This document shows, in pieces, positions 4,109 through 45,504 of a stretch of DNA of 48,882 bases. The notes beneath the pieces are model-generated. The model did not search any database and was not told the origin of the DNA. It saw nothing but the letters and a program-made list of their open reading frames with translations. The stretch covers positions 1 to 48,882 of IMG/VR virus record IMGVR_UViG_3300032954_000024; one strand, given 5' to 3'. A program made the translations under genes and the position numbers. How positions within the stretch are numbered: the first letter of the stretch is position 1; each line of letters begins with the position of its first letter. This stretch comes from a virus.

Positions 4109-4442
4109 CTAGATCGTGTGCCTCTCGTGTCTCTTGCTCTGCGGCTTCCTTTGCGGCTTCCAAACCACTCGCAATAAGCCTTTCTAATGCGCGCTTTAGA
4201 TACAACGCCACCTTAATGTTTACAATACACCGCGTGATTTCGTTCAAATCGGACGGCGAAGCCTCGCAAATCTGCTCCACGGCAATCTCCATGCTCTCTT
4301 TTGCATGCTGCATGAATAACTTAACCGTGGCGCTGTCGCGTATTTCTGCTTCAACATGGACCATGAGACCGACGCGGCGGAATAGCTCATTCCGGAGATT
4401 CAGCATCTCCTTGTAATGCTCAGACTGTTCAAACTCGCTCAT
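4083..4442 (-). CDS. Helical acidic hypothetical protein, 119 aa
   Basis: Nearly all alpha-helical by composition, with an acidic C-terminal tail ending 'DLDVGESDGD'. The start overlaps the stop of the repeat protein gene upstream by 4 bp (ATGA), implying coupled translation. Its place between a virion-like repeat protein and the scaffold suggests an assembly role, but I recognise no family. Confidence 0.65.
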   Translation of the reverse strand: MSEFEQSEHYKEMLNLRNELFRRVGLMVHVEAEIRDSATVKLFMQHAKESMEIAVEQICEASPSDLNEITRCIVNIKVALYLKRALERLIASGLEAAKEAAEQETREAHDLDVGESDGD

Positions 4443-7217: not shown

Positions 7218-8327
7218 CTATCTGGCGGCCAAAGCCTCCCGTATAGCCTGAAACACCGAAGGCCAATCCCCAGGCGCCGGCTGCTGGAATATCCGCACGC
7301 CTGGATACCAGCTTGGATGATCCCAACGCCAGCAACTATCATATCGCTGTATCAGCCATGTCTCTATCCCCATGGATGCTGCGAGATGCGCCACGGCGGT
7401 ATCGACAGAAATGACCAAGCCACATTTCATCAGTGCTATGGCAGTGTCCATCCAACTACAATCGCCAAGGTCTTGTTCCATGAGCGACTTGACGCTACCG
7501 ACGTTGAGACTGTTAATGAACTCACGAAATTCATGTGGACGAGGATTTTTCCGAAGCGTGGTCGGACTCGGTGATAGAGATGCACGACAAATGCCGACCT
7601 TATAGCCGCGCGATTGCAATCTATCCGGTACTGGCAATGGCTTGATCGGCTCCCATCCAATCGCCGGTCCAAGCAAAAGCGGAAGACTCAATAGGCTTAT
7701 TTCTATGTCGCAGTTTGGCTTTTCATAATGGACCGGAATTCCGGGAAGAAAAGCCTCGAATAATTCCAGCATTTTAGGAGGAGCCTCAACAGATATGTTG
7801 GGGCAATACTGCTTCAGCCTGGGAATATACCGCATGAATTCAATGTTATCGCCGAAGCCCTGTTCCCCCCGCACATAGACTCGGCTCCCTCTTATGTCAG
7901 CCAAAGTGCCATCGAAGGGAACGGTCGGCGCTTGCGGCAGATGCAGACGGGCTTCAGCCTTCGTCCAACCCTCTTGCCATCGTCCTATTTTCAGGAGAAT
8001 GCCAGCCTCGGCGAGTTGAGCAACATTCGCGATTTCTTCCAGCCCATGCTCAGACGCGATCCTTGTTGCCTTCTCGGCCAATTGGAGCGCCATGTCATAT
8101 TGCCGAAGGGTGTAGGCGCTGGCACTGAAACCGATCGATGCCTCTGGCACATTCGGCGCCATCGCATAGGCGCGTTCAAAGCATAGATGCGCCTCCAGAT
8201 AATGATCGATGCCGCTTGACGCCAGGATATGATGCCGAGAGCCAAGCTGACACCATGCCGATGCCTCACCCGGATTACGGAGCACTCGCATTTGCGCATG
8301 AGCCAACTGCGCCTCAAGTTCATCCAT
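7218..8327 (-). CDS. TPR-containing glycosyltransferase, GT9-like
   Basis: I chose ATG 8327 ('MDELEAQLAHAQMRV'), which has GAGGTAAC just upstream, 2 bp after the methyltransferase stop; this gives 369 aa. The N-terminal third shows tetratricopeptide-like helices ('AHLCFERAYAMAPNVPEA'). The rest resembles TPR-linked heptosyltransferase-like (GT-B) proteins, with 'VRGEQGFGDNIEFMRYIPRL' and, near the end, 'VISVDTAVAHLAASMG', the donor-site motif of GT9-type enzymes. It probably transfers a sugar in the cytoplasm. The target could be a virion protein or host surface glycan. Confidence 0.8.
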   Translation of the reverse strand: MDELEAQLAHAQMRVLRNPGEASAWCQLGSRHHILASSGIDHYLEAHLCFERAYAMAPNVPEASIGFSASAYTLRQYDMALQLAEKATRIASEHGLEEIANVAQLAEAGILLKIGRWQEGWTKAEARLHLPQAPTVPFDGTLADIRGSRVYVRGEQGFGDNIEFMRYIPRLKQYCPNISVEAPPKMLELFEAFLPGIPVHYEKPNCDIEISLLSLPLLLGPAIGWEPIKPLPVPDRLQSRGYKVGICRASLSPSPTTLRKNPRPHEFREFINSLNVGSVKSLMEQDLGDCSWMDTAIALMKCGLVISVDTAVAHLAASMGIETWLIQRYDSCWRWDHPSWYPGVRIFQQPAPGDWPSVFQAIREALAAR

Positions 8328-8329
8328 TG

Positions 8330-8953
8330 TTACCTCTTGCGATAAATGCGCAGCCATGCGCCGGATTCGCATAACTCGGCTGGCATCTCTTCCTCATATT
8401 CGACGGAAAAAAGTGACCGGATGGCCGAGTGGACATCGATCGCATCATCTTCCACGAAGCCAATCCGACCAGTTATATGATGTCTGGCGGGAAGATAGCG
8501 CTTATCCCGATTGATCACGAGAAACGGGGCATCTTTGGCGAGACAGCCTGCGATGGCATCGATGCAATCGAGTACATCCACACAATGCTGAAGTGACCAG
8601 ACGGCGATTGCTGACTGCGCCTGAAATGACTGTCCGTTCAGGAATGACGGATGTGCGACGGCGAGTCGATCAAGGCCGATCTGCTCGCCGGCATGACCGA
8701 GCATCGTGGGGGAAATATCGATCCCCACAACCGGATGTCCATCATCGATCAATAAACGCGATAGCCGCCCGATCCCGCATCCATAATCAATGACCAAGCC
8801 CGGTGGCAACCTACTGAGAAACGGCCGAAGGAACGCCGTTTCGCGCTCCCATCGGTCATCTGTCGTCAGCCCGACCTCGGGCGTCAGGATGACAGCACGC
8901 GCGTTTTGCAAATCCAACTGATCAAAGATCGCTGGAAAGTACATAAAGGCCAA
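8330..8953 (-). CDS. Class I SAM-dependent methyltransferase
   Basis: Residues 53-64 'VIDYGCGIGRLS' are motif I and 'VVGIDISPTML' is motif II of the Rossmann-fold methyltransferase. At 207 aa the length fits a stand-alone enzyme. The frame can begin at TTG 8953 (GGGG about 9 nt upstream) or ATG 8944. It lies 2 bp from the glycosyltransferase gene, so the two probably act in one modification pathway. Substrate unknown. Confidence 0.75.
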   Translation of the reverse strand: MAFMYFPAIFDQLDLQNARAVILTPEVGLTTDDRWERETAFLRPFLSRLPPGLVIDYGCGIGRLSRLLIDDGHPVVGIDISPTMLGHAGEQIGLDRLAVAHPSFLNGQSFQAQSAIAVWSLQHCVDVLDCIDAIAGCLAKDAPFLVINRDKRYLPARHHITGRIGFVEDDAIDVHSAIRSLFSVEYEEEMPAELCESGAWLRIYRKR

Positions 8954-9785: not shown

Positions 9786-11390
9786 CTATGGCAACACAAA
9801 CATACAATTACCGGCCGGCGAAAAGCTGCTTGGGATATCCGTCAGAACGATCTGACCACCGGCACCGGCCCCGCCGGTATTTGTCGTGGCGCCCCCACCG
9901 CCGCCGCCTCCACCGCCGCCTGGATATGCGCCGGCCCCTCCCACTTTCGCGGATGATGATCCGCCGGAGCCCGATCCGCCGCCGCCTCCAAGCATGTTGG
10001 CCGTTCCGTTATTTCCGGCTGTATTCGTGGCGCCTGCTGTCGCGCCGCCCGCACCACCCGAGCCATTATCTCCTGCGCCGCCTGCGCCGCTCGTCGTGGT
10101 CGTCGTGCCGTTGCTGCCTGCTACGCCAGCGCCGTCCTTGCCTCCCGCGCCGCCGCCGCCGCCGCCGAAATCGCCGGCCGCCGCTGCGCCTGTGCCGCCC
10201 GCACCGCCGTTGTTGAGTGTCGTCCCCGTGCCGCCGGTGCCGCCTGCACCGGCTGTCGAGTTACCCGTAGGCTTCTTGCCGCCCACCGCGATAACGACCG
10301 TTGAACTGATTGTCGTATTGCCACCATTCGCGGCCGTGCTTGTCGTGCCACCCGCACCACCAGCGCCGACCGCAACTGTAAGCGTGCCGCCTGGTGTAAC
10401 GGAGAGTGCCGGATTTGCTGCATACTCGCCGCCACCACCGCCGCCGCCAGAACGCGATGCCGCACCACTAATGCCTCCGCCGCCGCCGCCCCAACATTCG
10501 GCTTTTGCTAATCCAGAATAAGTCGCCGGTATTTGCGGCAATGTAATGCTGCCGAGCACAATGAGTCGATCCGGATCGCTGCCGGCATAGGTGATCTTTA
10601 TGAGGGACCATCCACCCGCCCCCGCTGATGCCGATGCGAATATCCCACCGCCGCCGCCGCCGGGCGTGCCGCCGTTGCCTCCGCCTGTACCAGACCCTGC
10701 GCAGCCGCCACCGCCGCCGCCGCCGTTATCGTAATCATCGCCACCCGCGCCGCCATTGCCGGCCGTTCCTGCACCGCCGCCGCCGCCCGCACCAGGACCA
10801 CCGGTGCCACCATTCCCACTCGTAGGGGCGCCAGCCGTTCCGCCTGTCCCATTATAGCCATTGCCACCAGCACCAGCGATATTGCCGCCCGTTGTGCTGT
10901 TGCTGCCTGCTGTGCCACCGCCGTTGCCGCCGCCACCACCGCCGCCATCCGCCGTCGAAGTTGGAGAGATACCGCCGAAGTTTCCGGCGCCATGCGGGCC
11001 ACCTGCTCCTGATCCGCCTTCATTGCCTTCTACGCTGCCGCCTTGTGGCGTACCGCCAGCATTGGTCGTGTCTCCAATTCGCGTGGTCGCGCTTCCGCCG
11101 CCGTTGGCCAGGGCGCCCTGTGACGATGTTGTGGGGGCTACGCCCGTGTTGGAAAGCCACGTGTCGCCACCGACAGCGAGACTCGTGACGCCCGGCGCAC
11201 CCAATGAGAAGGCGTATGTCGTTCCTGCTGTTACGCTAAGACTGTTTTTAGCCGCATAGCCGGCGCCAGCGCCCCCATCGCCATTGCTGTTGCCAGCCTG
11301 CCCCGCGCCCCAACACTCAACCTTCACGGTTACCGTGCTTCGCGGCGTCCAGGACCCGGCGCCATTGCCAACGATGTATTCGGTCGTCAC
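9786..11390 (-). CDS. Glycine-rich virion protein, 534 aa
   Basis: Two related halves each start with a beta segment ('VKVECWGAGQAG', 'AKAECWGGGGGG') and continue into long Gly-rich runs. This is the pattern of the glycine-rich domain found in tail-fibre and surface proteins, thought to form polyglycine-II-type sandwiches. The start is GTG 11390, two bases after the portal stop. Probably a fibre or receptor-contacting protein. Antisense frames across it are open only because of the repeated GGN codons. Confidence 0.75.
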   Translation of the reverse strand: MTTEYIVGNGAGSWTPRSTVTVKVECWGAGQAGNSNGDGGAGAGYAAKNSLSVTAGTTYAFSLGAPGVTSLAVGGDTWLSNTGVAPTTSSQGALANGGGSATTRIGDTTNAGGTPQGGSVEGNEGGSGAGGPHGAGNFGGISPTSTADGGGGGGGNGGGTAGSNSTTGGNIAGAGGNGYNGTGGTAGAPTSGNGGTGGPGAGGGGGAGTAGNGGAGGDDYDNGGGGGGGCAGSGTGGGNGGTPGGGGGGIFASASAGAGGWSLIKITYAGSDPDRLIVLGSITLPQIPATYSGLAKAECWGGGGGGISGAASRSGGGGGGGEYAANPALSVTPGGTLTVAVGAGGAGGTTSTAANGGNTTISSTVVIAVGGKKPTGNSTAGAGGTGGTGTTLNNGGAGGTGAAAAGDFGGGGGGAGGKDGAGVAGSNGTTTTTSGAGGAGDNGSGGAGGATAGATNTAGNNGTANMLGGGGGSGSGGSSSAKVGGAGAYPGGGGGGGGGGATTNTGGAGAGGQIVLTDIPSSFSPAGNCMFVLP

Positions 11391-11392
11391 GC

Positions 11393-14254
11393 TTACTCTA
11401 ATCCTTCGACTCGGCCGTCGGCGCCACGCTTGATCTTCTTCGGTCGTGTAATGGCGCTCACGAGGGCTTGATGCGAAGCGGCCCCATGTTCAGCCGCCCC
11501 CATAACGCTATTCGCTACGTGAGCCATCGCTTCTGCGACCATCGCGTTGGTCTGTTCTGCTCTCTCGGTCGCCTGCGCGATCATCTGCGCTATCGATCCG
11601 ATCGCCTGGACCATGACCTGTTCGCCTTCCTGCATCTGCTGCATCTGCTGCATCATGGTCTGCATGAACTGACGATCCACTTCCGACTCCTCCGGTTGCT
11701 GCTGTATTGGCGCAGATGGGGCCGTAATCTGTGACTGCGGAGGCATCATAGGCTGTTGCCCAGGCTGACCAGGAGTCAGTGGCTGCATTGTGGGCGGCGG
11801 AGGCATCTTTGGCATCTTGTAAGATGCCCCACCGGGCTTCGCGGCGCCCCCGCCACCACCCATCTGAACCGGCTTTGCACCAGCCATGTTGCTTTCGTGC
11901 TGCCATTGTCCTTCCGTCTTCCTTCCCTCATGCGCCTGATCGGATTGATGCATCTGCGCTTCATGCTGCTGGCCCATGACGCCCATTTGCTGCTCGTGCT
12001 GCTGGCCGATCTGCTGCGCCTGCAAGTCCTGCTGATGCTGCATGTGACCCATCTGCATATCGTGCTGACGATCTACGGCGCCCATCTGATGCTCATGCAT
12101 GTGGTCCGCCTGCTGCTTGGCCTGCTCCGCCTGCAAGCGGATCATCTCGCGTTGCGTCTCGGCGTCTTCCTCCATCCTCTGCGTATGGAAGTCGAGTTCC
12201 GCATTACGCGCATCTGTCTGCGCCCGCATTTGGTCGGACTGCGCCTTAGATTGGGCGTTGATATTCGCCACCTGTATTTTGGCCTGCGTTGCCGCAGGGC
12301 TCTCGCCTTGGCCCTGACCGCCCTTGCCCTGCGCCTTTTGCAATTCCTGTTGCAGCATGTGAACGCGAGGATCAAAGCCCGGCTGAAAGAACCGCGCCCC
12401 GTCTTTGTAGCCGAGCATCCCAAATACTTCCTTGGAGACTTCTTGGAAGTTGGCGCCCATGGCCGCTGACTGACCGAAGATCGATCCCAATATCTGCGCG
12501 CCCGTGGCGAAGTTACGCAGTTTCAGTTGAGGATTTGTCGCTCCGATGCCGACATTGACTCTTACCGTTACGCCGGCTTCCAGCAATTCGTCCGTAATCT
12601 CATTGATGCCGAATTTCTGGAATAGCTTGGCATTCGATCCGGCAGTGGCCAATACTTCGGGATCGGTCTCATAGGTCTGCTCTATCTTGATAAGTAGCTT
12701 GATCAGCGGTTCAACGAATGTCTCGCCGAATATTCGCAATTCATACTCATTCAAGCCGCTGGCCTCGCCGGACATGAGATGCATGCCGGTTGCGGACTGC
12801 TGGCTTACTTCCGACGAGCGCACGCTACTATTGGTGAACGAGCCGGCAAGGTCGTCCCAATCCAGATTGATCCGGTCTTGTTCCTGGAAAGCCGCAGCGT
12901 CAACTGGCGGGGGGCGGTCCCAGGTAACGACATTTGTAATAGGTTCTTTGCCAGAGTTGATGCTAACAACTTTGCCGGGAACGAACGTTCGTAAATCGTT
13001 AATATCTTGTCCCGCCCCCTGCTTAACGAATTGCCGTGGCTGTAGAGAGAGCATGATGTTATCAAAACGTGAGTTCCAATCCTGGTTTGCCGCGCGCTGA
13101 AGATCATTCGTCAATTCGATCTTGGAAGACGGATAGGTCTTGTGCGTCTCCAGAAGCACCGATCCCACGACATAGGGGCGGTCCCCATGCAGATGGACTT
13201 CCTTGAGGGGGCGCGGCTTCTCTAGGATCGTGCCACCGCCGCCTAATGTCCTGAAGTACCAATCCTCGCCGCGCCAGCGAACGATATTGATCCGTGTCCA
13301 GCAGATATCGAAGTGCCGAGGTTTCCAGGCGTCGTGGTCCTTGCCAGGGACGCGGCCGGCTTCGCGCGTTCGCCTTGTGACATCATCGGCCGTTCCAGTC
13401 GCCGTGTGCAAGGCGCTCTCTGAGACCCGCTCCCACTCCGCCGGCTGGCCGTCGTGGGCCTCCATCCGCTCCAGCGCCTCGCTGACATAGACAGGCACCA
13501 ATTCGATCAGATAGGGCGATGACTTAACCGGATCGCGCCAGTCGCAGCCGGGCTCAAAGCGGAAGTTTTCCGGCGCGATTAAGTTGGCATAGGGATGGTC
13601 CTTGATGATCTGATAAAGGTCCACGTCCTCAGTCGCAATGTTTTTTGCTTTGTCATCCCAGATGGGTTGTCCGGCGCTGTCGAGTTTTGGCCGCGTTTCG
13701 CTTCTGAGCTTCCTTTCCTCGTACTCCCATCCGGCCTTGGCAACGCAGATGCCCATGATCCCGGCATCCTGCCGCGCGCCGATTATCGTCAGAAACCACG
13801 GGATGGTATTCGTCAGCCGGTACTGAAGGAGTTGCTGAAGGATTGCGGCTGATGCCTGTTGCTGCGGATTATCGTCATCGCGGGCCGAGATGCTGACCAC
13901 ATCTTCATTGGAAAAGAACGCCGCTGCGGTCGCTGCTTCATCGCGGCGCGTCATAGCGCGCGTCTTCGGCCGATAGAGCGTGGAACGGTAGCGATAGTCG
14001 CCAGACAGGTACTTGCTTCCAGAGGGATGCAAGTTTTGAAAGGCACGAAGGCTGTCATTCCAGCGGGCGCGGCGCCCTGCATTCAACCAATTGGTACTGC
14101 TATCGAATATTTCACGGCCAATCTCAAAGGCCGTGTGATCGTCCAGTTTGTTGCTGCGGTTGATCCCTGGTGCGTCAAAATTGGAAACGGCAGACGGTTC
14201 ATAGCCGAAGGGGCCATCCTGGATTGAGGGAGGAGTGTCGCGTCCGCCGACCAT
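11393..14254 (-). CDS. Portal protein
   Basis: At 953 residues it is the size of large podovirus-type portals. The region 60-600 has portal-like features ('TRRDEAATAAAFFSNEDVVSI', 'VGSVLLETHKTYPSSKIELTND', 'VSQQSATGMHLMSGEASGLNEYELRIFGE'). Residues about 650-780 form a long Gln/His/Met-rich coiled coil, followed by a Pro/Gly-rich linker and a C-terminal helix. The portal forms the dodecameric DNA entry channel to which the terminase docks. It ends 2 bp before the Gly-rich gene. The assignment rests on length, context and weak motif resemblance. Confidence 0.75.
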   Translation of the reverse strand: MVGGRDTPPSIQDGPFGYEPSAVSNFDAPGINRSNKLDDHTAFEIGREIFDSSTNWLNAGRRARWNDSLRAFQNLHPSGSKYLSGDYRYRSTLYRPKTRAMTRRDEAATAAAFFSNEDVVSISARDDDNPQQQASAAILQQLLQYRLTNTIPWFLTIIGARQDAGIMGICVAKAGWEYEERKLRSETRPKLDSAGQPIWDDKAKNIATEDVDLYQIIKDHPYANLIAPENFRFEPGCDWRDPVKSSPYLIELVPVYVSEALERMEAHDGQPAEWERVSESALHTATGTADDVTRRTREAGRVPGKDHDAWKPRHFDICWTRINIVRWRGEDWYFRTLGGGGTILEKPRPLKEVHLHGDRPYVVGSVLLETHKTYPSSKIELTNDLQRAANQDWNSRFDNIMLSLQPRQFVKQGAGQDINDLRTFVPGKVVSINSGKEPITNVVTWDRPPPVDAAAFQEQDRINLDWDDLAGSFTNSSVRSSEVSQQSATGMHLMSGEASGLNEYELRIFGETFVEPLIKLLIKIEQTYETDPEVLATAGSNAKLFQKFGINEITDELLEAGVTVRVNVGIGATNPQLKLRNFATGAQILGSIFGQSAAMGANFQEVSKEVFGMLGYKDGARFFQPGFDPRVHMLQQELQKAQGKGGQGQGESPAATQAKIQVANINAQSKAQSDQMRAQTDARNAELDFHTQRMEEDAETQREMIRLQAEQAKQQADHMHEHQMGAVDRQHDMQMGHMQHQQDLQAQQIGQQHEQQMGVMGQQHEAQMHQSDQAHEGRKTEGQWQHESNMAGAKPVQMGGGGGAAKPGGASYKMPKMPPPPTMQPLTPGQPGQQPMMPPQSQITAPSAPIQQQPEESEVDRQFMQTMMQQMQQMQEGEQVMVQAIGSIAQMIAQATERAEQTNAMVAEAMAHVANSVMGAAEHGAASHQALVSAITRPKKIKRGADGRVEGLE

Positions 14255-14641
14255 TTAATACTTACTCTTGAGGATCATGTTGGCGCCATCATAGCCTCCG
14301 AGTTTCGCGCGCATCATCCAATCGTCAGGCGCTCGCTCGCGCGGCAATCGATAGCGCTCCAATATCTCGCCGGCGGCGCTTAATACCTTCTTTGCGCCTC
14401 CGGGACCAATCGCCGTCGTGATATGCAAGAGGAAACCAGCCTCTCCCATGCCCTTGCGCAGTAGCTGCGGCACATTGAGGGTGATCTTCAACACTCCCGC
14501 CTCATGGTTGACCCCGACGCCCCAAAGGTAGCCGGGATAGGCTTGACCGAGAGCGTCCATGATCACACGGCAAAGCTGAAGATCGGCCGCCTGCGTTGGG
14601 CCTGCCGCTTCATTGACCTGAATGAAGGTTGGCTTCTCCAT
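14255..14641 (-). CDS. Conserved-looking phage protein, 128 aa
   Basis: An alpha/beta protein ('LWGVGVNHEAGVLKITLNVPQLL', 'AGEILERYRLPRERAPDD') placed immediately before the portal gene with abutting ends. It overlaps the upstream gene's stop by 1 bp. The position suggests a head-assembly or packaging accessory. No family recognised with confidence. Confidence 0.65.
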   Translation of the reverse strand: MEKPTFIQVNEAAGPTQAADLQLCRVIMDALGQAYPGYLWGVGVNHEAGVLKITLNVPQLLRKGMGEAGFLLHITTAIGPGGAKKVLSAAGEILERYRLPRERAPDDWMMRAKLGGYDGANMILKSKY

Positions 14642-15117
14642 CAGTACGTATACCCCCAGGCGGAGACTGATACCGCGCCGCCCGATCCTGGTGCGGCCGT
14701 CGTGACAACGATATTCGTATTGATGGCCGATGAAGGAATGCAGGGATTGAACTGCTCTTCGACGACGCCGATCCCGGATGCGAGTGGAGCGGTGAACTGC
14801 GTGAAGTTCATCGTGTTGACGGTACCCGTTACCGCTGCATTTCCGGTTGCTGCGCCCGTGGCATTGGCGCGGATGGAAAAGCCGCAGAGATATGTATTCT
14901 GATTCGCCGCGCCCGTGAGCGTGGCCGTGATCGCCGTCGTCGTGCCTGTGGCCGACGCCGTGACAGGACTAGAGCCGAAGGGAATGTAATTCCCCGCCCT
15001 CACGCCGGAATAGGACGGCGGGTTCTGCGCCACTGAAGTCTTTGTCAGTTCAAGTGTTCCGATCAAAGCGGAGAGAAATAGCAGTACACTGACAAGGGCC
15101 GCTAAGAAGGGTTTCAT
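14641..15117 (-). CDS. Small secreted phage protein with Sec signal
   Basis: Residues 1-30 form a signal peptide: a Lys near the start, a hydrophobic core 'FLAALVSVLLFLSALIG' and an 'SVA-QN' cleavage site. The mature part is beta-rich, with Thr/Ala runs and two Cys, and resembles a small jelly-roll or fibre domain. It overlaps the giant glycosidase gene by 4 bp (ATGA), so the two are co-translated. A signal peptide on a protein between portal and terminase genes is unusual. Confidence 0.7.
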   Translation of the reverse strand: MKPFLAALVSVLLFLSALIGTLELTKTSVAQNPPSYSGVRAGNYIPFGSSPVTASATGTTTAITATLTGAANQNTYLCGFSIRANATGAATGNAAVTGTVNTMNFTQFTAPLASGIGVVEEQFNPCIPSSAINTNIVVTTAAPGSGGAVSVSAWGYTY

Positions 15118-18100
15118 CGTGTTAAACTCACAGGGGTTGCGAAAGGCATCATCCAGTTATCGTTAGCATGGCGCTCGTTTTCTCCGAAGATCAGAATGAA
15201 CGGATGTCCATTGTTTGCGGTCGCCGCCTGCGCTGGCGTAAATCCGGTTGGCAGCGCTACCGTGAATGGTCCCGTCGCATTCAGGACATTCGTTCCGGTC
15301 GTATCCAGGCTATTGAAGGTAATGAAGTAGGGTCCGCTGAGGCCAGAGAACGGCAAGCCGCCGGTAGCGGTCGCCGGATTTGCCGTCGTCGAGTCGTTCC
15401 ACGGATAGCCAATAGCGCGCATGGTTGCATTGGTCGCCCAGAATGACTTGGCGACAGTATCGACACAGATCGTCTCTGCTTCTCCGTTCGGCGAGACCGG
15501 AACCGCCGCGCCGCCAAAAGCCGACGAGAAATCGGCCGAGAACGGATCGACCGCCGTCAGGCTGGCTAGGATGGTGTTATTATAGATGATCGCCTGGGGA
15601 GCGGCGGCTGAATTTGGATCAAAGCCTATCCCATTGCTATCGCCGCCCAAGCCGGCTGGGAGGGTCAGCGAATAGCTGGAATTGGCGACGCCAAAATCCC
15701 AATTCGGCGTTATGACGGATGCCGTCCCCTCAAAGCAGACCTTTCCGCTGATGGCTATTGTAGCGCGCACCGATTGAGAGCTTTTCGTGGCCTGCGAGAC
15801 TGTCGCAGTCAGATTACCGTTCGATAGAACGATGTTGGCGCTCTGGTCGAGAGGATTCCAACGCATATTACCGGGCTGCGTTGGCGGCGCGGCCGTAATG
15901 TCGATGATAACTGGCGCATCCGCGAGCGGAAACGTGATCGCATTCGCATTCACTGACTGCACTGGCGTCGTGCCCGTAACGGCATCATATTCCGCCATCG
16001 GCTGCACGAGCCCATTGCCTATAGTCAGCGTGACGTTGACCGGCGCGATAGTAATGGGCGTGCCGGCGGCGACATTCCAGTTGGTGTCATTCCTCCAAAA
16101 GACGAACTCGAAATGCCCATTGGTCTTCTGGAAAAGCAGAGATTGCCCGTATGTAGGCATATTGGACAGGGTATAATTGAGCGAATTGGGCGTAAATGTG
16201 CGTGCGGTTGACCCTGCATCCAACATGGGCGTGATCATATTGTGCAGGTATTTCGCCTGAGTATTCGGCACGCCGGAAGATGCGAAGATGCCAAAGCCGG
16301 AGCCACCATCGTACATCGAATAGATGTTGATAAGCCCCTCGCCTGCCGACCACGCATAAAGCAGCCCATTCAGCATGCAACGGCCGGCCTTGTCCGCATT
16401 GACGTTGTCGCCTCCGGCCCTGACGTTATTCGTCTGATAGCCGTACTCCGTGATGACCCGAGGGCCGGCCGCGAGGACCGCCGCCTGATTGGCATATCCG
16501 GAGAAGTTCCCCGCGAACGTGGTGATGTTATTCCACTGATTTTCAACCGTCGTCGCATCGCCGGCAGCCGGATCATCCATCTGGCAGGCGGCGGTCGGGC
16601 CGGGCGAGTGAAATGTGTTCTGATCCATCGTATAGATATGCTGCGAGAAGGTCTTCCCGAGTACCGTGCCATTCGCCACTGACGAGTGGCCTCCCTGGAC
16701 TGTCAGGAACTGGAGACCGGCGTCATTCGTCTCGGCTCCAGCCCGCGAAACACCATAAATAGGCAGGTTTTTCAGGGGGGCGTCCGCCAGTAATGCCGTT
16801 ATGTAATCGGCCATATACTGAGACACGATCGTCCATGGAAGACTCGGCCCCCCTCCGGTAGTGCCATTGTAAGTAATGGTGGCGAGTTCCGGCTCATTGA
16901 TGCCATCGATGGCATAGACGGCGTTCGGATTGATGGCTTGCCAAGCGTGCTGCTGAGCAATCTGCGTCGCGGGCGCAATCGTGCCATAGGGAACCTGACT
17001 AACCATGCTGATACCACCGTTCAGCAACGTCGTCAGGGCCGTGAAAGATGGGCCGCTCGTCGATACGTCCAGGCCGGACCGGACGTGCGTCGTGCCGATG
17101 TAGTTGAGATCGGCCAGGAACTGTGTGCCGGCGTTGCAATCAGCCGTCCCGCCCTCCGTCAGGCAACCCTGAACCGATAGGGCATTAAGGAAATCCGCTG
17201 AACGTTGCGCCGTCGTCGTCGTGGCGCCCGGCCCTCCGCCGCCGCTGGACGCGCACGTTGTGTAAAGCATCTGAGACCAATAGGTCTGCTGGCCGGCTTT
17301 ACTCGTCCCGTCAGGGTTCAGTGTGCCGTCCGGGACCTGTCCGGCCAGATTGCCGAAGGTCCACCAATCGCCACCCATGGGCTGCTGGCAACCGGTAAAA
17401 GTCGGGGCGCCAGCCGTCCCGCTTGTTCCATTCATATAACTTATTACGCCCGAGGCCCATGCTTGCTCATCGGATAGATTGCCATTCGAGTTATCCAGGC
17501 TGGCGCCAAATTCGCCAATCCAGACAGGAAAGGCATTATTCGTCTCCAGAAATCCCCATGTCGTCGTGCGGATAGTCTGCATATTCGGGCCACTATCTGG
17601 GTTATTGCCGGAAATGGAAGTCGGGTACTCGTGGATCGACGCCACGAGTTTGCCGGAGCAACAAGTCGTCGGATTACTGGAGAACGTCGTCAGGTCCATG
17701 TAAGGACCTGTCACAATCGGGTAGCTCGCTGATCCGCGCGTTACACCATTGAAAAGCGTGCCATTGTTGATAATTCCCTCAATAATGATCAGGGCGCCGG
17801 GATCGGCCGCGAGAATGGCCGCACCAACGTCGTTTGCCATGGCGCGCATGTCTCCGCCATTACCGGAGCCCCAATTCGCGCCATAGGTGCCGGTCGAACC
17901 GCAACACGTGTTGCCATAGGTCGTCGGCTCATTATGGAGATCGAAGCCGATGACAGTAGAGTTGCCCGCATAGTGGGTCGCGATTGCTATCCAATCGGAT
18001 TTGAATCGTGAATAGTTCACTGTCCCGGTCGTGCCACACCCATCTGTCCCATTGCCAATCGCGTTCCATGGGGCAGCCTGATTAACGTCATACCAGAGAC

Positions 18101-20789
18101 CGTTGGCCTGCTGGCTTAGGCAGCCATTGTTGCCGTTGACGCCCTCATTGCCATGATGATCGAAAATGACCTTCATATTATTGGCGGTGGCGGCCGACAC
18201 GATCGCGTCCATCGTCGTGAAGCTGCATACGCCGCCAGGACAGGTCGTCGCGTCATACCAGGGCGCGCGAACGCAGTTAAATCCCTGGTTGCGCATGATA
18301 TTCATGTCCGACGAGTAATTGCCGGTGGGCTCGTTGTAGCCGGAGCACGACATCCGCACGTCATTGCCGGACCCGTCCGTGACTTGATTACCAGCGCTAT
18401 TGAGATAACCGGCCGGTAACGGCGACATCGGCGTGCCACCGCCGCCTCCGCCGGTCCCTGTTTGCGCAAACAAGATATCCAGCATGGGCTTGCCTGTGGG
18501 CAGCGGTCGATAGGTATCCCAAACATCATGCCCGAGTGTCGTATCAAGCAGATAGTAATAGGACGAAGTCCCCGCACGCCCTCCGGCCGGCGGTCCAGGA
18601 TAGTTCGTATTGCCGGTTATCGCGGTCCACATTGGATTTGTCCAATTGACCGGATTGGACGAGTTCGTGTCCCCGGAGCCATTAACCGCGAAGATCACAG
18701 GGCCGGCTGCGACCTGAGAGGCTTGCGCGTTCGTCACTGATCCATTGATGCCATTACGATAGATGTTCCCGGAGAATGGCATGCAGGCGGTGACGATGTG
18801 ATTGATCGTCCCGGTATTGATCCCGTGGTCCATGCAAGCGGCCCACGCGCCGATGCCGCCCAGACTATCGCCTGTTACATAGACCGGGCCGACGTTGAAT
18901 TGGGATTTGAACTGAGCAATGAGCGCCATAACGCCCTGTTCATTGGGCTGCGAGTCTGGCGTGTCATTGTAGCCGCCGAAGTTCTGGGTCTGGCCGGAAG
19001 GGTCCGCGACCTGATCAGCGTACGGCATGAGGATAATGCAGCCGTTGGCGCAATAGGCGCTTTGAAATCCAGCATTATCATACCACGTTTCCGGACCCGC
19101 GCCGTTCGGCAGTGGCTGCGACAAATACGTGCAGTTATTAGAACCATTGTAACATGGATTACCTTCGTCATTCTCATGCTCGTAGACCATGAGAACAGCT
19201 TTATTTGCTGCATTATAGTTCAGCAGAATATACTGATAGTTCATATAGCCATGCGGCATGTAGGAGAGCGTCAATTGCGCCTGCTGCCAGACGCCGACCG
19301 ATGGCAACGGAGATTGGGTCGTCGGTCCTGTCCATGCGGCGGCGGCATTTGGTTTGCTGTACCAGTTGCCGCTGGTATTTAGCTGCCACACCAATCCATT
19401 AACGTACGCCAATTCGACCACGTTCGATGTGACCGGATCAACGGCACAGGTTCCGGCACAGACGTTAATCTGCGCCCCAGATGTCAGCCCGAAGGTCTCA
19501 CCAAGGCTATCTGTGATGACCGGGCCGACCGTCGTGATGACAGTATCGGAGATACTCGCCGGTCCCTGGACAATGAAGCCATTCGAGACAACGGAGGCTG
19601 AAGTATTATTGGCATCCCGCACATACGTCGTCTGCGCGCCCGTTGCCGCCAGTCCGGGATGGGTGAAAGTGAATGTCGTCGATGTCACCGTTGCGCCACC
19701 CGGCAATGATAGCCACGTCACGCCGTCGTCGCTGTATTGCATCGTCGGCGCCATGCTGTAGCCAGAGATCGTGCCGCTTTCGGCAAAGCTCGTATTGGCC
19801 TGAACCGTGCTGATATTGTTAATCGCAAACGCGGACGATTGTGTCGCAAGGATCGTCGTTAATGCCGATCGCCAAGCGTTCACGGCGGCGGGATCAGTGC
19901 TCCAGTCTCCAGCGCCGGCTGAGTTATCGACATAAAGGCCAATCAGACCAATTGTCAGTCCGTTTTGATTATTCACGATCGCCTGCGCCAGATTGGGCGC
20001 GAATGCCGTGTTTGTCGCGGCTCCCCCGGTTTCGCCGATGGCAAATGGCACGCCCAATGACTTAGACAGCGCGATCATGCTGCCGACCGTAATATCATTC
20101 CCAGTAGCAACTCGCAGCGGCGCGGTATCGACCTGAAACGGCTCCCCATAGATATCCTCTCCGATCAGGTCCATCGAGGATGTGTGCGGTGTGTAATTCG
20201 CCAGCGGCGTGTTCGGGACCGGATTACCGTCATTCGGGCAGAAGAAAACAAGGACCGTAATGCCGGTTTGCGAGTGGGCAAGAGCGGCGATGTGATCGAA
20301 TGCCGCTGCATAATCCGAAGCATTGGATGAGGTCACCAAGCCGAGGTTCATTTCCCACCCCGGCCGCAGGATCATCTTCGTGTAGCCGGCGTTCTTAATC
20401 GTCGTTATCAGGGATGTAATGACGCTATCCCACTGGCCTCCGATGATCTGCTGGAATGCCGTATCTCCGGATGCCAGAGAGTCTTGCATTGGCAGCGACA
20501 TATAGGGAACTGCCGGCGGGTTCCATGGGGCGAAGGCCGCGAGGCCATTCATGTAATCACCAAGGTCGCCCGGCCAATCCGTATGAGCGTGCGTTCCATC
20601 CATGTAAATCATGGGCGCAGTGAGTGGCAATCCGGTACCGAGCGCGTTTTGTAGCCGTGTCCAGTTTGCCGGCGCCACACTTCCGCAGCACGTTCCCAGA
20701 TAGCTCGGGAAGTCGCCAAGGATCATGGCAGCATGGGAAACGCCCATTGATCCGAGGAGGAGGGCCAGAATGAGGATAATCTTGCGCAT
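15114..20789 (-). CDS. Exported multi-domain glycosidase/esterase, 1891 aa
   Basis: Domains in order. (1) Residues 1-20, Sec signal peptide ending 'SHA'. (2) 21-315, GH26-like barrel, likely acid/base Glu146 in 'RPGWEMN' and nucleophile Glu253 in 'IGETG'. (3) About 325-490, Ig-like and carbohydrate-binding-like beta modules. (4) About 500-775, alpha/beta-hydrolase esterase with Ser642 in GDSLGG and His754 in 'LGHDVWDTY'. (5) After a Gly linker at 777-785, residues 790-1180 form a GH5-like cellulase domain with Glu954 (HNEP) and Glu1093 ('WIGEFG'). (6) After a second Gly linker, 1190-1635 form another clan-A-like glycosidase with Glu1299 ('INEP') and Glu1448 ('ITEYG'). (7) 1640-1891, SPRY-like domain ('RWNPLDQSANIVLSNGNL'). 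All catalytic residues look intact. It probably degrades host or environmental polysaccharide (mannan, glucan or exopolysaccharide). Whether it is a virion depolymerase or a secreted enzyme is open. Confidence 0.85.
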   Translation of the reverse strand: MRKIILILALLLGSMGVSHAAMILGDFPSYLGTCCGSVAPANWTRLQNALGTGLPLTAPMIYMDGTHAHTDWPGDLGDYMNGLAAFAPWNPPAVPYMSLPMQDSLASGDTAFQQIIGGQWDSVITSLITTIKNAGYTKMILRPGWEMNLGLVTSSNASDYAAAFDHIAALAHSQTGITVLVFFCPNDGNPVPNTPLANYTPHTSSMDLIGEDIYGEPFQVDTAPLRVATGNDITVGSMIALSKSLGVPFAIGETGGAATNTAFAPNLAQAIVNNQNGLTIGLIGLYVDNSAGAGDWSTDPAAVNAWRSALTTILATQSSAFAINNISTVQANTSFAESGTISGYSMAPTMQYSDDGVTWLSLPGGATVTSTTFTFTHPGLAATGAQTTYVRDANNTSASVVSNGFIVQGPASISDTVITTVGPVITDSLGETFGLTSGAQINVCAGTCAVDPVTSNVVELAYVNGLVWQLNTSGNWYSKPNAAAAWTGPTTQSPLPSVGVWQQAQLTLSYMPHGYMNYQYILLNYNAANKAVLMVYEHENDEGNPCYNGSNNCTYLSQPLPNGAGPETWYDNAGFQSAYCANGCIILMPYADQVADPSGQTQNFGGYNDTPDSQPNEQGVMALIAQFKSQFNVGPVYVTGDSLGGIGAWAACMDHGINTGTINHIVTACMPFSGNIYRNGINGSVTNAQASQVAAGPVIFAVNGSGDTNSSNPVNWTNPMWTAITGNTNYPGPPAGGRAGTSSYYYLLDTTLGHDVWDTYRPLPTGKPMLDILFAQTGTGGGGGGTPMSPLPAGYLNSAGNQVTDGSGNDVRMSCSGYNEPTGNYSSDMNIMRNQGFNCVRAPWYDATTCPGGVCSFTTMDAIVSAATANNMKVIFDHHGNEGVNGNNGCLSQQANGLWYDVNQAAPWNAIGNGTDGCGTTGTVNYSRFKSDWIAIATHYAGNSTVIGFDLHNEPTTYGNTCCGSTGTYGANWGSGNGGDMRAMANDVGAAILAADPGALIIIEGIINNGTLFNGVTRGSASYPIVTGPYMDLTTFSSNPTTCCSGKLVASIHEYPTSISGNNPDSGPNMQTIRTTTWGFLETNNAFPVWIGEFGASLDNSNGNLSDEQAWASGVISYMNGTSGTAGAPTFTGCQQPMGGDWWTFGNLAGQVPDGTLNPDGTSKAGQQTYWSQMLYTTCASSGGGGPGATTTTAQRSADFLNALSVQGCLTEGGTADCNAGTQFLADLNYIGTTHVRSGLDVSTSGPSFTALTTLLNGGISMVSQVPYGTIAPATQIAQQHAWQAINPNAVYAIDGINEPELATITYNGTTGGGPSLPWTIVSQYMADYITALLADAPLKNLPIYGVSRAGAETNDAGLQFLTVQGGHSSVANGTVLGKTFSQHIYTMDQNTFHSPGPTAACQMDDPAAGDATTVENQWNNITTFAGNFSGYANQAAVLAAGPRVITEYGYQTNNVRAGGDNVNADKAGRCMLNGLLYAWSAGEGLINIYSMYDGGSGFGIFASSGVPNTQAKYLHNMITPMLDAGSTARTFTPNSLNYTLSNMPTYGQSLLFQKTNGHFEFVFWRNDTNWNVAAGTPITIAPVNVTLTIGNGLVQPMAEYDAVTGTTPVQSVNANAITFPLADAPVIIDITAAPPTQPGNMRWNPLDQSANIVLSNGNLTATVSQATKSSQSVRATIAISGKVCFEGTASVITPNWDFGVANSSYSLTLPAGLGGDSNGIGFDPNSAAAPQAIIYNNTILASLTAVDPFSADFSSAFGGAAVPVSPNGEAETICVDTVAKSFWATNATMRAIGYPWNDSTTANPATATGGLPFSGLSGPYFITFNSLDTTGTNVLNATGPFTVALPTGFTPAQAATANNGHPFILIFGENERHANDNWMMPFATPVSLTR

Positions 20790-20797
20790 CGGTGTCC

Positions 20798-22426
20798 CTA
20801 GCTCGCCGGCTTGCTCAAATTGATCTGCACAACGGAACTAGTTGGGCTGCCGGCCGTCGCCGATATCACGAGCGCAAGCGTCTGACCATTCGAGATGACA
20901 TTAGCGGATGTGCAAGTGGCCGTTGTATCGATCGCCGAGGTCACCGACAGGCCATTGCATCCGACGATATTTGTTCCGTTGATTTGAAGAGAGGCGACGA
21001 AAGACGGCGTTGAAGTGCCACCCGTATGATAAACAATCGAATTGATCGTTCCGGTGCCCGTAAACGGCCATTTTTCAATCATATTATAGGTGTCGTTATG
21101 GATCGTCGTCGTCGAATCGGCCAGAAAGATCAGTGATTGCGGCTGCAATCCTAATGCGATTAGGCCGCCGGCTGAGATCGTCAACGGCGCCGTCGCGGCA
21201 AGAGCGCCGCCGTTTGCCGTCGTCGCGCATGTATTGCATGCGAGCGTCAGCGCCGGCCCAACGCCGCCCCCGGTAAGAGGACCCGTCGTCACGATACTGA
21301 ATAAGTACGGTCCTTCCGTGACGCCATTAGCACGACCAAAGAAGCCTGCCGAGGTCACCCACACGTCGCCGTTGACGGGGGATGTCGGCGCAACGCCGGC
21401 CGGGATATTGATCGATGCACTGCCGGCGGTGCTCGTCAAGAAGGTCTGTTTGCCTGTGTAGCTGGCCGCTGCGATTGAGATCGCGCCGCTCAGCGTTGGA
21501 CTCGTGAGGGCGGCATTCGGGATCGTCAATGCCGCCGGCAATGTCGTCGCTTCCGATGGCACTCCGCTTCCATTCGTCACCAGGACGCCGTTATTGACAA
21601 TCGTCAGGCCGGATACAACGGTCGATGACCCGGCAGATGAATAGAATGGGATAGCGTTTTGTGGAGAGGCCGTGACGGTCCCGCTTCCGCCAGAACCGCC
21701 GCCGGGCGGCACGCCAGAATCGACTGCATTGCCGTTTCCGTCATAAGCAAGCGCGTGTCCAACCGTAAATGATCCTGTCGCCAACTGTATTTTACTGCCA
21801 TTTCCCTGATTCGTCGTAAGTCCGCCCGGATACAGGACTTGTCCACCAACAGTAATTGCTGACGATGTAGGATTTGGAAGCGCGGTCCACGTGCCGACGT
21901 TATTCACGACATAGTCGCATCCCGTCGCTCCGGCTCCGACCTGCGAGCCGTTCGGGCAGTTCAGGACGAAGGCATGAAGACCGGCATTGGCCGAGGTCAC
22001 AGCCGGCAGGGCTGCTGATGTCGCGTAATTCGGGAACTGACTTCCGCCGGTCCCATACGGGCCTATGGCAGCACCGTTGACGCAACTGAAAAGCCCGGCT
22101 CCAGTTGACCAGATATCTCCCGAAACACAAGCGGTCGGCGCCGTACCTACGCCAAGATTAAGGCCGGCGGTACTGGAACTGGACGGCAGCGCTTTGATTT
22201 CGACAGTCAGTTGGCTTTGCAGACCGCCAGCGACGACCTCTGTCAGCGTAAAGGCTCGTGTGTGGGGCGATTGGCCACTTTGCCATCCGAGGACAAGATC
22301 GCTTCCTTGCGGACTTGTGGCGGCCGGGCAGTTATCGATCAGGCCGCCCGTGCATTGCGCAGATGCGCCAAGAGAGAAGAGCGTGACGAGGAGTATTGTC
22401 GCGATGGACAATGCTAACTTGCGCAT
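20798..22426 (-). CDS. Tail-fibre-like protein with Sec signal, 542 aa
   Basis: Residues 1-23 ('MRKLALSIATILLVTLFSL' then 'GASA') form a signal peptide. Two Cys follow at the mature N-terminus ('QCTGGLIDNC'). The rest is Gly/Ser/Thr/Ala-rich beta sequence with motifs common in phage fibres ('AIPFYSSAGSSTVVSGLTI', 'LTSPTLSGAISI'). Two sub-repeats 'GDIWSTGAGLFSCVNGAAIGPY' and 'GDVWVTSAGFFGRANGVTEGPY' are alike. It is the gene just upstream of the giant glycosidase (9-bp gap). It may be a fibre, with the export signal unexplained. Confidence 0.7.
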   Translation of the reverse strand: MRKLALSIATILLVTLFSLGASAQCTGGLIDNCPAATSPQGSDLVLGWQSGQSPHTRAFTLTEVVAGGLQSQLTVEIKALPSSSSTAGLNLGVGTAPTACVSGDIWSTGAGLFSCVNGAAIGPYGTGGSQFPNYATSAALPAVTSANAGLHAFVLNCPNGSQVGAGATGCDYVVNNVGTWTALPNPTSSAITVGGQVLYPGGLTTNQGNGSKIQLATGSFTVGHALAYDGNGNAVDSGVPPGGGSGGSGTVTASPQNAIPFYSSAGSSTVVSGLTIVNNGVLVTNGSGVPSEATTLPAALTIPNAALTSPTLSGAISIAAASYTGKQTFLTSTAGSASINIPAGVAPTSPVNGDVWVTSAGFFGRANGVTEGPYLFSIVTTGPLTGGGVGPALTLACNTCATTANGGALAATAPLTISAGGLIALGLQPQSLIFLADSTTTIHNDTYNMIEKWPFTGTGTINSIVYHTGGTSTPSFVASLQINGTNIVGCNGLSVTSAIDTTATCTSANVISNGQTLALVISATAGSPTSSVVQINLSKPAS

Positions 22427-24901: not shown

Positions 24902-27469
24902 TCAGAAGCCGTCCGAATAAACCTTCGGATCAACGCCATAGCGCGCGGCCGGCGCAATCGGCGGCAATGGCTCCATATCATATATGCGGCTGGTCGCATC
25001 GATCAGGTCCTTGTGGAGCCCGAAGGGGAACAGGGTATATTCCTCGATAAAGCGGATCGTCACATCGTAACGGCCGCCGCCAGCCCGAAGAGATGCAACC
25101 AAGGGATCGCGAGCGATGATCGGACGGCAGATAAGCTCCGGAAAGCCAGCCTCGATCATGTTCAGTTGCGCTTTGGTCAATCCTTGTCCGGTTTGGTATT
25201 CCACGATTCCAAACGTCGCAGACGCCGGATCAGCGTCAACCCGCCACGTGGAAGGTTGTTCCTTGTATAGCACCGAAAGAGGTAGATAAAATCTCCCATT
25301 GCGGAAGTCAGGCTCCAGGCGATCGACTCTCTCTTTCTTTGAATTGCCGCCCTCACGCGGCCAAGCCAGTTCCTCAATCGGGAAATAAGCCCGTGGGTCT
25401 TTGGTTCTGGCATATTCGATTTCCATCTGTTCCTGGAAGTATTCATCGTCCGATTGGGCGCCATAGCGCTCATAGCCGACATTGATAGATTGAACTCCGG
25501 CCATACCGCTCCAACGGTGATAAAGACCCCGCAGATTTCGCCAGCGCTCCGAAAGCGTCATGCGATGGCACATACCGTCCAACAGATATTTCGCGCCGCC
25601 GGACCCGATCCCGACGACGGCAATCGCGGTGTTATCGCTTGTCGCCGTCTTTCCGCGTGAAGGATCGGCCATGATGTAGACGTTGAGCGTACGGGGCCTG
25701 ACTTCATAGGCTCGCAGCCAATGGGTCATGAACGATTGGCCTTCGTCGGCCATAGGGTTCTGGAGTAGCTGCGCGGCAACTGTCGCACGCCCTTGACGCT
25801 GGACCTTTTCCTTCCACACGCGCTCGGAAAGAAAGACAGGCTTGCCGTCGAAGCGGCCATTATGCGTCGCCGGATAGAGGCGCGCGGTGACGACCTTGCG
25901 GACCAGCATGGTCGAATAGGTATCGTAGAGACTATTGGCCGAACAGAAACCGTTTGCGACGTAATTCCCGGTCCCCGTCTGTAGCCAATGGACATCGGCC
26001 ATCCCGACATCCTCAATGCCCGTGAGTTTTAGCCGTTCAGTCATCATTTGGCCGAATAGTGATGCTTCGATCTTTGCCCTTCTCATTGGTCTGATAACCG
26101 CGAGAAAACGCTGCCTCTCCCGCCAGCCACCTTCAATCACGATATGGCTGACCGGATTGTCCTCTTCCTTGAAACGATTAACAGAAAACCCAAATCCGAG
26201 CTTCGTCAAGCATTCCTGCGCATAATCAATCAAGATGCGATTGCGCTCTGATTGGGTGAAAACGATAACACCGCTAGGCCGGTCGCCTCCGCCGTTGTTG
26301 GTCACATGCCCTTCACCATCGAAGAAGCCGGCAAGCCATGCAGCCTCCCGGCTGCTATCGGGCGATGTAGGAATTAAAAGTTCGCGAATATGCTTTAGAT
26401 CGTGATAGCCGCCCCCAAGCGGGCTGTATTCGCGGCCATTGCTTATTCGTCGGTCTTTTGCTCCCGATTTCCATTGGGCTCCCCGCCACCATCTGTGATC
26501 CGCCGTGCACGTCACCGAGCGGCCATTATCGAATGAATAGCGATTAACTGGCTGCATTGGGTGAGAGCCGACTACCTGAACCGACGTCTTGATCAGATAC
26601 CGCTTTCCGTCTTCCGGACGCTGCGACCACCCAATGACTTCATCACCCGCGACAACATCGGCGATCCGCTTGAATGTCCAATCTCCCATCAGGATCGGCG
26701 TGTCAGCTACCGTGCAATATCTCGTGCCGATATAGCGCACGGCGCCTCCCTGATCGGAGTTGACACCGAGATTGTCCGATAGCTCCCAAGCGGCGGTCGT
26801 CTTTTGGATTTGCTCGGGTGTCGTGACCGATTTATCAGTCACTACATCATCGTAAACCCGCAGTTTGAAATGTCTGCCTGTCGGCTGGCCATCGACGAGC
26901 CCCCAGGCTTCCACCGTGGCCTCTTTCGGATTGCCTTGGCGCTTGACGACAATCCCATCATCTTCCGACCACTTCGGCGATTGCTTCTCGGGCGCCGTGT
27001 AGAAGATATCCGGATAAAGCTGCTGAAGGCGCAGATTCATCTCAAATTCCAGCTTGATCTGGCGCAAGAAGGCTTTGGCAATCGGCCGTGTATGAGAAAA
27101 TATGCCGACCGTGATGTCAGGGTCCTTGATGATGTCCTGAATCGTCAGCGCGAAGGTGATGATCGTCGATTTGTAATGCTCGCGTGCCCAGAGGTCGAGA
27201 TGATCATTGGGGGCGGCCTGGACCTCCCGGCAGCGTTCAAACAACCACGGCCGCATCGCATCAGGTCGCCGAAGAATGACGGTCAACAGATAGAACAGAT
27301 CGTGCTTGCCGAGATATGCCTCAATTTCGTCCCAAATCCATGGCTCGCCGAGGGCCTGCGCTGCTTGCTGAAGCTCCACATACCAACGCCGCGCCTTATC
27401 GAACTTCGCCGGCAGCGGAATGCGCATTAACTCTTTAAGGCTCTCCAATGCCTCTTTCGGAAGTGTCAT
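24902..27469 (-). CDS. Terminase large subunit with intein
   Basis: Exteins: residues 1-251 hold the packaging ATPase, with a deviant Walker A at 'AREHYKSTIITFAL' (96-109) and Walker B at 'LRVYDDVVT' (203-211). After residue 512 comes the RNase H-like nuclease, starting at 'VYIMADPSRG' (first catalytic Asp). The spliced junction would read 'YIGTRY-SLYDTYST', a natural terminase sequence. The intein is residues 252-512. The protein cuts and translocates DNA into the prohead at the portal. The start overlaps the small-subunit gene by 4 bp. The unspliced length of 855 aa becomes about 594 aa after splicing, a normal TerL size. Confidence 0.9.
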   Translation of the reverse strand: MTLPKEALESLKELMRIPLPAKFDKARRWYVELQQAAQALGEPWIWDEIEAYLGKHDLFYLLTVILRRPDAMRPWLFERCREVQAAPNDHLDLWAREHYKSTIITFALTIQDIIKDPDITVGIFSHTRPIAKAFLRQIKLEFEMNLRLQQLYPDIFYTAPEKQSPKWSEDDGIVVKRQGNPKEATVEAWGLVDGQPTGRHFKLRVYDDVVTDKSVTTPEQIQKTTAAWELSDNLGVNSDQGGAVRYIGTRYCTVADTPILMGDWTFKRIADVVAGDEVIGWSQRPEDGKRYLIKTSVQVVGSHPMQPVNRYSFDNGRSVTCTADHRWWRGAQWKSGAKDRRISNGREYSPLGGGYHDLKHIRELLIPTSPDSSREAAWLAGFFDGEGHVTNNGGGDRPSGVIVFTQSERNRILIDYAQECLTKLGFGFSVNRFKEEDNPVSHIVIEGGWRERQRFLAVIRPMRRAKIEASLFGQMMTERLKLTGIEDVGMADVHWLQTGTGNYVANGFCSANSLYDTYSTMLVRKVVTARLYPATHNGRFDGKPVFLSERVWKEKVQRQGRATVAAQLLQNPMADEGQSFMTHWLRAYEVRPRTLNVYIMADPSRGKTATSDNTAIAVVGIGSGGAKYLLDGMCHRMTLSERWRNLRGLYHRWSGMAGVQSINVGYERYGAQSDDEYFQEQMEIEYARTKDPRAYFPIEELAWPREGGNSKKERVDRLEPDFRNGRFYLPLSVLYKEQPSTWRVDADPASATFGIVEYQTGQGLTKAQLNMIEAGFPELICRPIIARDPLVASLRAGGGRYDVTIRFIEEYTLFPFGLHKDLIDATSRIYDMEPLPPIAPAARYGVDPKVYSDGF
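25934..26716 (-). mobile_element. Intein with LAGLIDADG homing endonuclease domain, 261 aa
   Basis: Starts at Cys252 ('CTVADTPILM', block A), with 'GDEVIG' and 'VTCTADHRWW' (block B TxxH). One LAGLIDADG motif is visible ('AWLAGFFDGEGHV', about residues 377-389). The C-terminal block 'GNYVANGFCSAN' is followed by Ser as the +1 residue. The usual penultimate His is replaced by Ala. It is inserted between Walker B and the nuclease domain, in the conserved 'GTRY' site that selfish elements favour. Excision gives an intact terminase. Confidence 0.85.
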
Positions 27470-45332: not shown

Positions 45333-45503
45333 ATGCTAAAAGAGCGTTTCTGTCGATACTGTGGCAACAGTATGGGGCTGATCGAGGATCGTAACTTCGA
45401 TCGGCAAGACCATTGCGGCAGACTTCAATGCCAGAGGGAAGCTCGCGATGAGGACCTGGAAAAACGCGAAGAAATCTATCGCGGTTTCAGTGATGGGTAC
45501 TGA
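45333..45503 (+). CDS. Small zinc-finger-like protein, 56 aa
   Basis: ATG 45333 has AGGTAAC upstream. Cys7-x2-Cys10 ('CRYC') and Cys28/Cys33 ('CGRLQC') could bind one zinc. The C-terminal half is an acidic helix ('EARDEDLEKREEIYRGF'). It sits in the lysis-like module and nearly abuts the next gene. Function unknown. Confidence 0.55.
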   Translation: MLKERFCRYCGNSMGLIEDRNFDRQDHCGRLQCQREARDEDLEKREEIYRGFSDGY

Positions 45504-45504
45504 C

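Follow-up and report, generated by a model that had tools for sequence, protein, structure and literature searches.

Glycosidases of family GH5 have been described both in phages and in viruses from soil. Protein gp095 of Erwinia phage S6 cleaves a carboxylated cellulose substrate, and cellulose serves as the first receptor of that phage (PMC9544554); a GH5 endomannanase from a peat-bog virus is active on glucomannan and galactomannan (PMC6786970). The uncultured phage considered here is represented by IMG/VR virus record IMGVR_UViG_3300032954_000024, whose 48,882 bp (GC 57%) form the analysed window, and it carries on the minus strand (15114..20789) a gene for a protein of 1891 amino acids (aa) in which a predicted Sec signal peptide is followed by GH26, esterase, GH5 and PslG-like modules and by a C-terminal SPRY domain. 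The preferred reading, to which a probability of roughly 0.5 is given, is that this protein is a Sec-exported exopolysaccharide (EPS) depolymerase that would act free of the particle after lysis.

The gene occupies one uninterrupted frame that opens with an ATG at 20789, and the same interval read on the plus strand is crowded with stops. An AGGGA motif lies upstream of the ATG, a 542-aa gene (20798..22426, minus) terminates 8 bp upstream of it, and a downstream 158-aa gene (14641..15117, minus) shares 4 bp with the 1891-aa gene, suggesting that the three genes are probably co-translated. A scan of the region for sigma-70 promoters and terminators gave no excess over shuffled sequences. The initial annotation had described a single secreted-type chain of 1891 aa with three glycosidases and an esterase; the frame proved exact, a Sec signal peptide is indeed predicted, and all four enzymes were recovered, but the SPRY domain, a small module at residues 411-500 and an Ig-like linker had been left unlisted.

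The first catalytic module (residues 21-315; 19845..20729, minus, as are all module and residue coordinates below) was assigned to GH26 through an Acidisoma intermediate, since neither direct Pfam and phmmer family searches nor searches of phage, plasmid and PDB sequences gave any match to these residues. The Acidisoma protein, which matches the module by phmmer at 9.6e-14, passes the cut-off of Pfam GH26 (PF02156) and bears a CBM60, and a seven-row family profile matches 38 PDB chains, nearly all of them GH26 enzymes (best 2.5e-12). The predicted acid/base E146 (20352-20354) and nucleophile E253 (20031-20033) are invariant in the seven-row alignment and line up with the LRPLHEAN and PIIIAEFA motifs of endoglucanase H; the His that precedes the acid/base in GH26 is replaced by Trp in the 1891-aa protein and in several relatives. 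The module is followed by a beta-rich, Ig-like linker (residues 316-408; 19566..19844), which is recognised from sequence only and for which a homologue search found none, and by the small module at residues 411-500 (19290..19559), which is probably carbohydrate-binding. Copies of this small module are present in three Acetobacteraceae genomes, where they show at most 49% identity, often stand in tandem and adjoin CBM60, and the module was absent from 289 genomes sampled across Alphaproteobacteria at large, a sample that held no positive control.

Residues 501-785 (18435..19289) form an alpha/beta-hydrolase esterase by profile, with matches to LC-Est1C (7.8e-19) and to esterase 3doh (2.4e-14); an apparent match to acyl-CoA synthetase was judged spurious. 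A nucleophile elbow of the GxSxG form, GDSLGG, is present at 640-645 and holds S642 (18864-18866). D707 (18669-18671) and H754 (18528-18530) are plausible triad candidates picked by order and spacing, the alignable relative ending before that region; the esterase had been said to keep its Ser and His, and the Ser is well placed in its motif, whereas the His is placed by position only. The GH5 module of endoglucanase type (residues 788-1165; 17295..18428) matches Pfam Cellulase PF00150 at 8.1e-29 (101.4 bits, cut-off 23.5), and its nearest solved enzyme is endocellulase E1 (4e-17), to which E954 (17928-17930) and E1093 (17511-17513) align within NEP and GE(F)G motifs. Used as queries in the viral scans, the GH26 and GH5 modules found no relatives.

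The third glycosidase (residues 1186-1636; 15882..17234) belongs to a family with no Pfam match and was identified by family alignment and by structure prediction. The AlphaFold2 model (pLDDT 80, pTM 0.86) is a clan GH-A, (beta/alpha)8-type barrel with a C-terminal beta domain and two Glu, and Foldseek returned PslG as the best solved fold (E 4.1e-14, TM ~0.55), together with heparanase, GH30 and GH51. In a PslG-like family of 47 sequences, N113 and E263 are invariant and E114 is nearly so (query numbering); E1299 (16893-16895) and E1448 (16446-16448) are conserved in this family. PslG is a member of GH39, and Pfam GH39 was unmatched by the 1891-aa protein and by the bacterial relatives scanned, so that the module, judged by its model, is one that would work like PslG and yet is not filed as GH39. 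At least 226 bacterial genome stretches contain members of the PslG-like family, as do 14 viral loci, there mostly within long signal-peptide proteins, and one viral PslG-like protein (L169) carries a beta-helix. A similar fold is found in BFVD among uncultured Caudovirales proteins, indicating that the module is already present in databases, though without a name.

The C-terminal SPRY domain, of phage-fibre type (residues 1641-1891; 15117..15869), was recovered both by profile (RanBP9/TRIM9 SPRY, 1.7e-10) and by fold (AlphaFold2 model with pLDDT 70; Foldseek match to TRIM67 SPRY, 5e-10). Its relatives lie on 42 viral contigs and at the C-terminus of gp64 from Burkholderia phage FLC9, and by these homologies the predicted domain has a phage distribution and is found in many fibre-like proteins. 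A joint alignment of the PslG-like and SPRY modules placed the short rows of the latter on the glycosidase and was abandoned. The three catalytic Glu pairs that had been claimed for the glycosidases (E146/E253, E954/E1093 and E1299/E1448) all lie within conserved catalytic motifs, and the predicted folds are in keeping with the GH26/GH5-type barrels that had been expected, GH26 and GH5 by profile and the third by AlphaFold2 and Foldseek with PslG. The catalytic bodies are thus barrels of the GH26, GH5 and GH-A kinds together with one alpha/beta hydrolase, and not the right-handed beta-helix of a tailspike. As to the general statement that phage depolymerases usually have a single beta-helix, others without this fold were already known, namely the GH5 cellulases of Erwinia, Klebsiella and Pseudomonas phages.

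When the whole protein was used as a query against viral and bacterial contigs, nothing was found. GH5 relatives (43-46%) and the 411-500 module are present in all three of the Acetobacteraceae genomes G397, G317 and G326, with a PslG-like relative (32%) in G397 and a GH26 relative in G326, and in G397 the PslG-like enzyme, in G317 the GH5 enzyme, has the 411-500 module as a fusion partner. Near the PslG-like enzyme of G397 are encoded the chain-length protein Wzz, a glycosyltransferase and an acyltransferase of AT3-SGNH type; the surroundings of a Bradyrhizobium relative (L059) include glycosyltransferase and pyruvyl transferase genes as well as genes for polysaccharide export, and a Rhizobium relative (L005) lies near a GDP-mannose dehydratase gene. 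By these similarities the 1891-aa chain looks like a series of bacterial EPS-enzyme modules fused to a phage domain. GH5 relatives extend to a Chthonomonadales genome (44%) and PslG-like relatives to a Bacteroidia genome (38%), so that several bacterial groups are candidate donors of the modules. The kinship with cellulosome enzymes proposed in the initial annotation gave way to a different picture, as the closest relatives are modular EPS-associated glycanases, including those of Acetobacteraceae with the 411-500 module, and another close relative is a multi-glycosidase SPRY protein encoded in the baseplate cluster of a phage (L166).

Residues 1-20 (20730..20789) form the predicted Sec signal peptide, MRKIILILALLLGSMGVSHA followed by A at the cleavage site, with an n/h/c-region score of 3.89. 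The gene stands in the centre of a row of three genes that score as signal-peptide genes, flanked by that for the 158-aa protein and by that for the 542-aa protein, the latter fibre-like by eye and by position, with a resemblance to the ISxLPAA fibre N-terminus that is not significant by BLAST. Signal-peptide N-termini account for 1.0% of open reading frames (ORFs) across portal-related phage loci (8/774), a background rate that argues against three adjacent cases by chance, and for 16.9% of ORFs in the loci that carry the PslG-like module. The 1891-aa protein contains 29 Cys, with 8 close pairs against 4.1 in shuffles (P 0.026), which lends weak support to an oxidising compartment. Runs of 3-6 signal-peptide genes were also observed in other phage loci (L165:1479-9013; L163:7128-18464; L164:7149-19366; L173:1043-7862), and within the window a pectate-lyase-like spike (47374-48723, minus) has an RR-containing, Tat-like N-terminus, MDRRSLFKTSALVAPAALWALYAQA. 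A search of the open-licence literature for signal peptides on phage fibres turned up nothing relevant. It may be suggested, tentatively, that in some phages the depolymerases and the proteins of the fibre slot are synthesised as Sec precursors from several adjacent genes, such that an adhesive and polysaccharide-cutting set would mature in the periplasm and then be deployed outside the particle or join it after lysis; the 1891-aa gene and its two neighbours would then be one such set, and the runs in L163/L164, L165 and L173 would be comparable. This raises the testable question of whether a phage can export some of its host-recognition and depolymerase equipment through the host Sec system, as opposed to the cytoplasmic assembly of particles.

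The slot that holds the 1891-aa gene lies between terminase and portal. The portal is of SU10 type (11393..14254, minus; Pfam SU10_portal, 3.3e-38) and is preceded by a 128-aa gene (14255..14641, minus) that is conserved in related phages and at which the variable slot ends. Among 59 loci of phages with a related portal, the terminase-portal stretch varies from ~0.4 to 5.3 kb. In three of these (L198, L229 and L193) the slot contains proteins that start with an ISQLPxA motif, and that of L229 matches PHROG tail fibres (6.7e-29); in two others (L002 and L223) it contains a protein of 308-312 aa with a signal-peptide-like N-terminus and a body homologous to that of L193 (E ~1e-5), where the N-terminus is cytoplasmic. 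Similar fibre bodies therefore exist both with and without an export signal. The record also encodes a major head protein, a DnaB-type helicase and a RecT-like protein, and the earlier placement of the 1891-aa gene in a virion operon is only partly borne out: the gene runs collinear with those for terminase, portal and capsid, but its slot varies in content among relatives.

The activity, substrate, export, release at lysis and host family of the protein are all predictions, and the proposed route is accordingly given in conditional terms. The protein would be produced alongside the structural genes, exported by Sec to the periplasm and folded there, and released at lysis to act outside the cell, a course argued from the predicted signal peptide. 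The esterase would strip acyl, likely acetyl, groups from the polymer and the three glycosidases would cleave different linkages, GH5 and GH26 on beta-1,4 glucan or mannan-type backbones and the PslG-like module on a linkage of the host EPS, while the SPRY domain would attach the enzyme to a partner, which may be the virion or the surface of the cell. In this way the slime surrounding the burst would be loosened, and the progeny could diffuse through it and adsorb. PslG as the best solved fold and the EPS-gene neighbourhoods of the PslG-like bacterial relatives point to an EPS target, most likely an acetylated EPS of the host, which fits the esterase and these neighbourhoods better than does mannan or glucan, the latter being possible substrates. 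Acetan-like EPS, which is acetylated and mannose-containing and has a cellulose backbone, is made by some Acetobacteraceae.

Several observations weigh against a freely acting, exported depolymerase. The full architecture is known from 1 sequence only, the signal-peptide calls derive from a home-made n/h/c-region score other than SignalP, most portal-related phages have a slot without any signal-peptide gene, and GH5 and GH26 span many specificities. A prophage form, sought by its capsid in 385 Alphaproteobacteria genomes, yielded no capsid relative, so that the host family is suggested by module similarity alone. Finally, the L166 protein sits between two baseplate wedge genes, which points to a part of the virion. 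The main rival reading, which is less probable, makes the 1891-aa protein a tail fibre or spike of the virion; its hydrophobic N-terminus would serve as an anchor, or the protein would be added to the particle after export, and its enzymes would clear the path of the adsorbing phage. The SPRY fibre module, a slot that holds tail fibres in some relatives and the position of the L166 multi-glycosidase protein together argue for the virion, as do the location of the GH5 gene of Pseudomonas phage Skulduggery among structural genes, the annotation of other phage GH5 proteins as tail or baseplate, and the proposed role of the GH5 cellulase of S6 in clearing the path of a phage that requires cellulose as its first receptor (PMC9544554). 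A cleavable-looking signal peptide is, however, hard to square with cytoplasmic assembly, and both flanking genes have one.

An auxiliary metabolic gene, whose exported enzyme would let the infected host draw carbon from polysaccharide of plant or microbial origin, is improbable. The signal peptide and the combination of GH26, GH5 and esterase, which would suit acetylated glucomannan, are compatible with such a role, and the peat-bog viral GH5 endomannanase is an active precedent (PMC6786970), but the C-terminal SPRY fibre module and the position in a fibre slot speak against it, and the PslG-like module points to bacterial EPS. The least probable alternative, to which very little weight is given, is a surface-remodelling or superinfection-exclusion protein that would act before lysis on the envelope or nascent EPS of the infected cell itself. 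Predicted Sec export would put the protein in the periplasm and PslG is part of a polysaccharide-synthesis locus, yet three glycosidases and a fibre domain exceed the needs of such a role, and it has no direct support. A phage chain with four catalytic modules would be an unusual set of enzymes, already assembled, with which acetylated bacterial slime could be stripped, and the 14 viral loci of the PslG-like family supply new biofilm-cutting candidates.

Other genes of the record were also noted. The terminase gene (24902-27469) is interrupted by an in-frame 261-aa intein (25934-26716, minus; LAGLIDADG_3 homing domain by Pfam, 4.7e-07), whose predicted splicing gives IGTRY^SLYDTY, comparable to the uninterrupted VGTRYSYTDSY of L002. 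Genes for a class 3 lipase-like protein and a subtilase-type peptidase, which are unusual phage enzymes, adjoin one another at 45448-47162 (plus). Within the structural region, TPR/GT9-like and SAM-methyltransferase-like genes are located at 7218-8953 (minus), and a similar gene follows the capsid gene of L002. An 837-aa protein (4439-6952, minus) consists of many imperfect QEQPxHPLPxxxxGxQGPNVAPP repeats and has no family match, and a 534-aa glycine-rich protein (9786-11390, minus) resembles a frame of L166/L167 (1.4e-46), a match that is possibly driven by composition.

Comparison with known systems shows that each resembles only part of the 1891-aa protein. Phage GH5 proteins from Erwinia phages S6, PEp14 and phiEaP8, Klebsiella phage SopranoGao and Pseudomonas phage Skulduggery are 21-26% identical to residues 789-1159. 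These cellulases (phrog_18474 hydrolase) share with it a GH5 domain in a phage protein, but they leave its GH26, esterase and PslG-like modules unmatched, and the Skulduggery protein lacks a signal peptide and carries Ig repeats along with an adaptor domain of fibre-tail type. The soil viral GH5 endomannanase (PMC6786970) and a soil viral chitosanase (PMC9485262) are likewise active viral glycosidases, but they have been read as auxiliary metabolic genes and a single activity was tested. PslG, an EPS glycosidase of Pseudomonas aeruginosa, provides the best solved fold for residues 1186-1636, but at 11-12% identity and a TM-score of ~0.55, and it is a single enzyme of bacterial origin. The modular glycanases of Acetobacteraceae (G397, G317, G326 and Acidisoma L093) share the same kinds of module, at times joined in pairs (GH5 43-46%, PslG-like 32%, GH26 26-29%, 411-500 at most 49%), whereas those read have one catalytic domain each and CBM60 in place of SPRY, and the fused ones have no Sec signal by the same home-made score. 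The L166 protein (L166:6374-11233, IMG/VR contig 3300048999_000056; 1619 aa) combines GH39-like, GH16, PslG-like and SPRY modules in one chain, and its PslG-like and SPRY modules are homologous to those described here; it differs in having no signal peptide, another module order and FN3 repeats, and it is without esterase, GH26 and GH5. Polysaccharide depolymerases are a known kind of phage protein, as are GH5 cellulases, and a viral mannanase is likewise known, whereas a phage chain with four predicted catalytic modules, a putative PslG-like family of phage enzymes and the predicted presence of export signals on neighbouring proteins of the fibre slot appear to be new, as far as the data and literature searched show.

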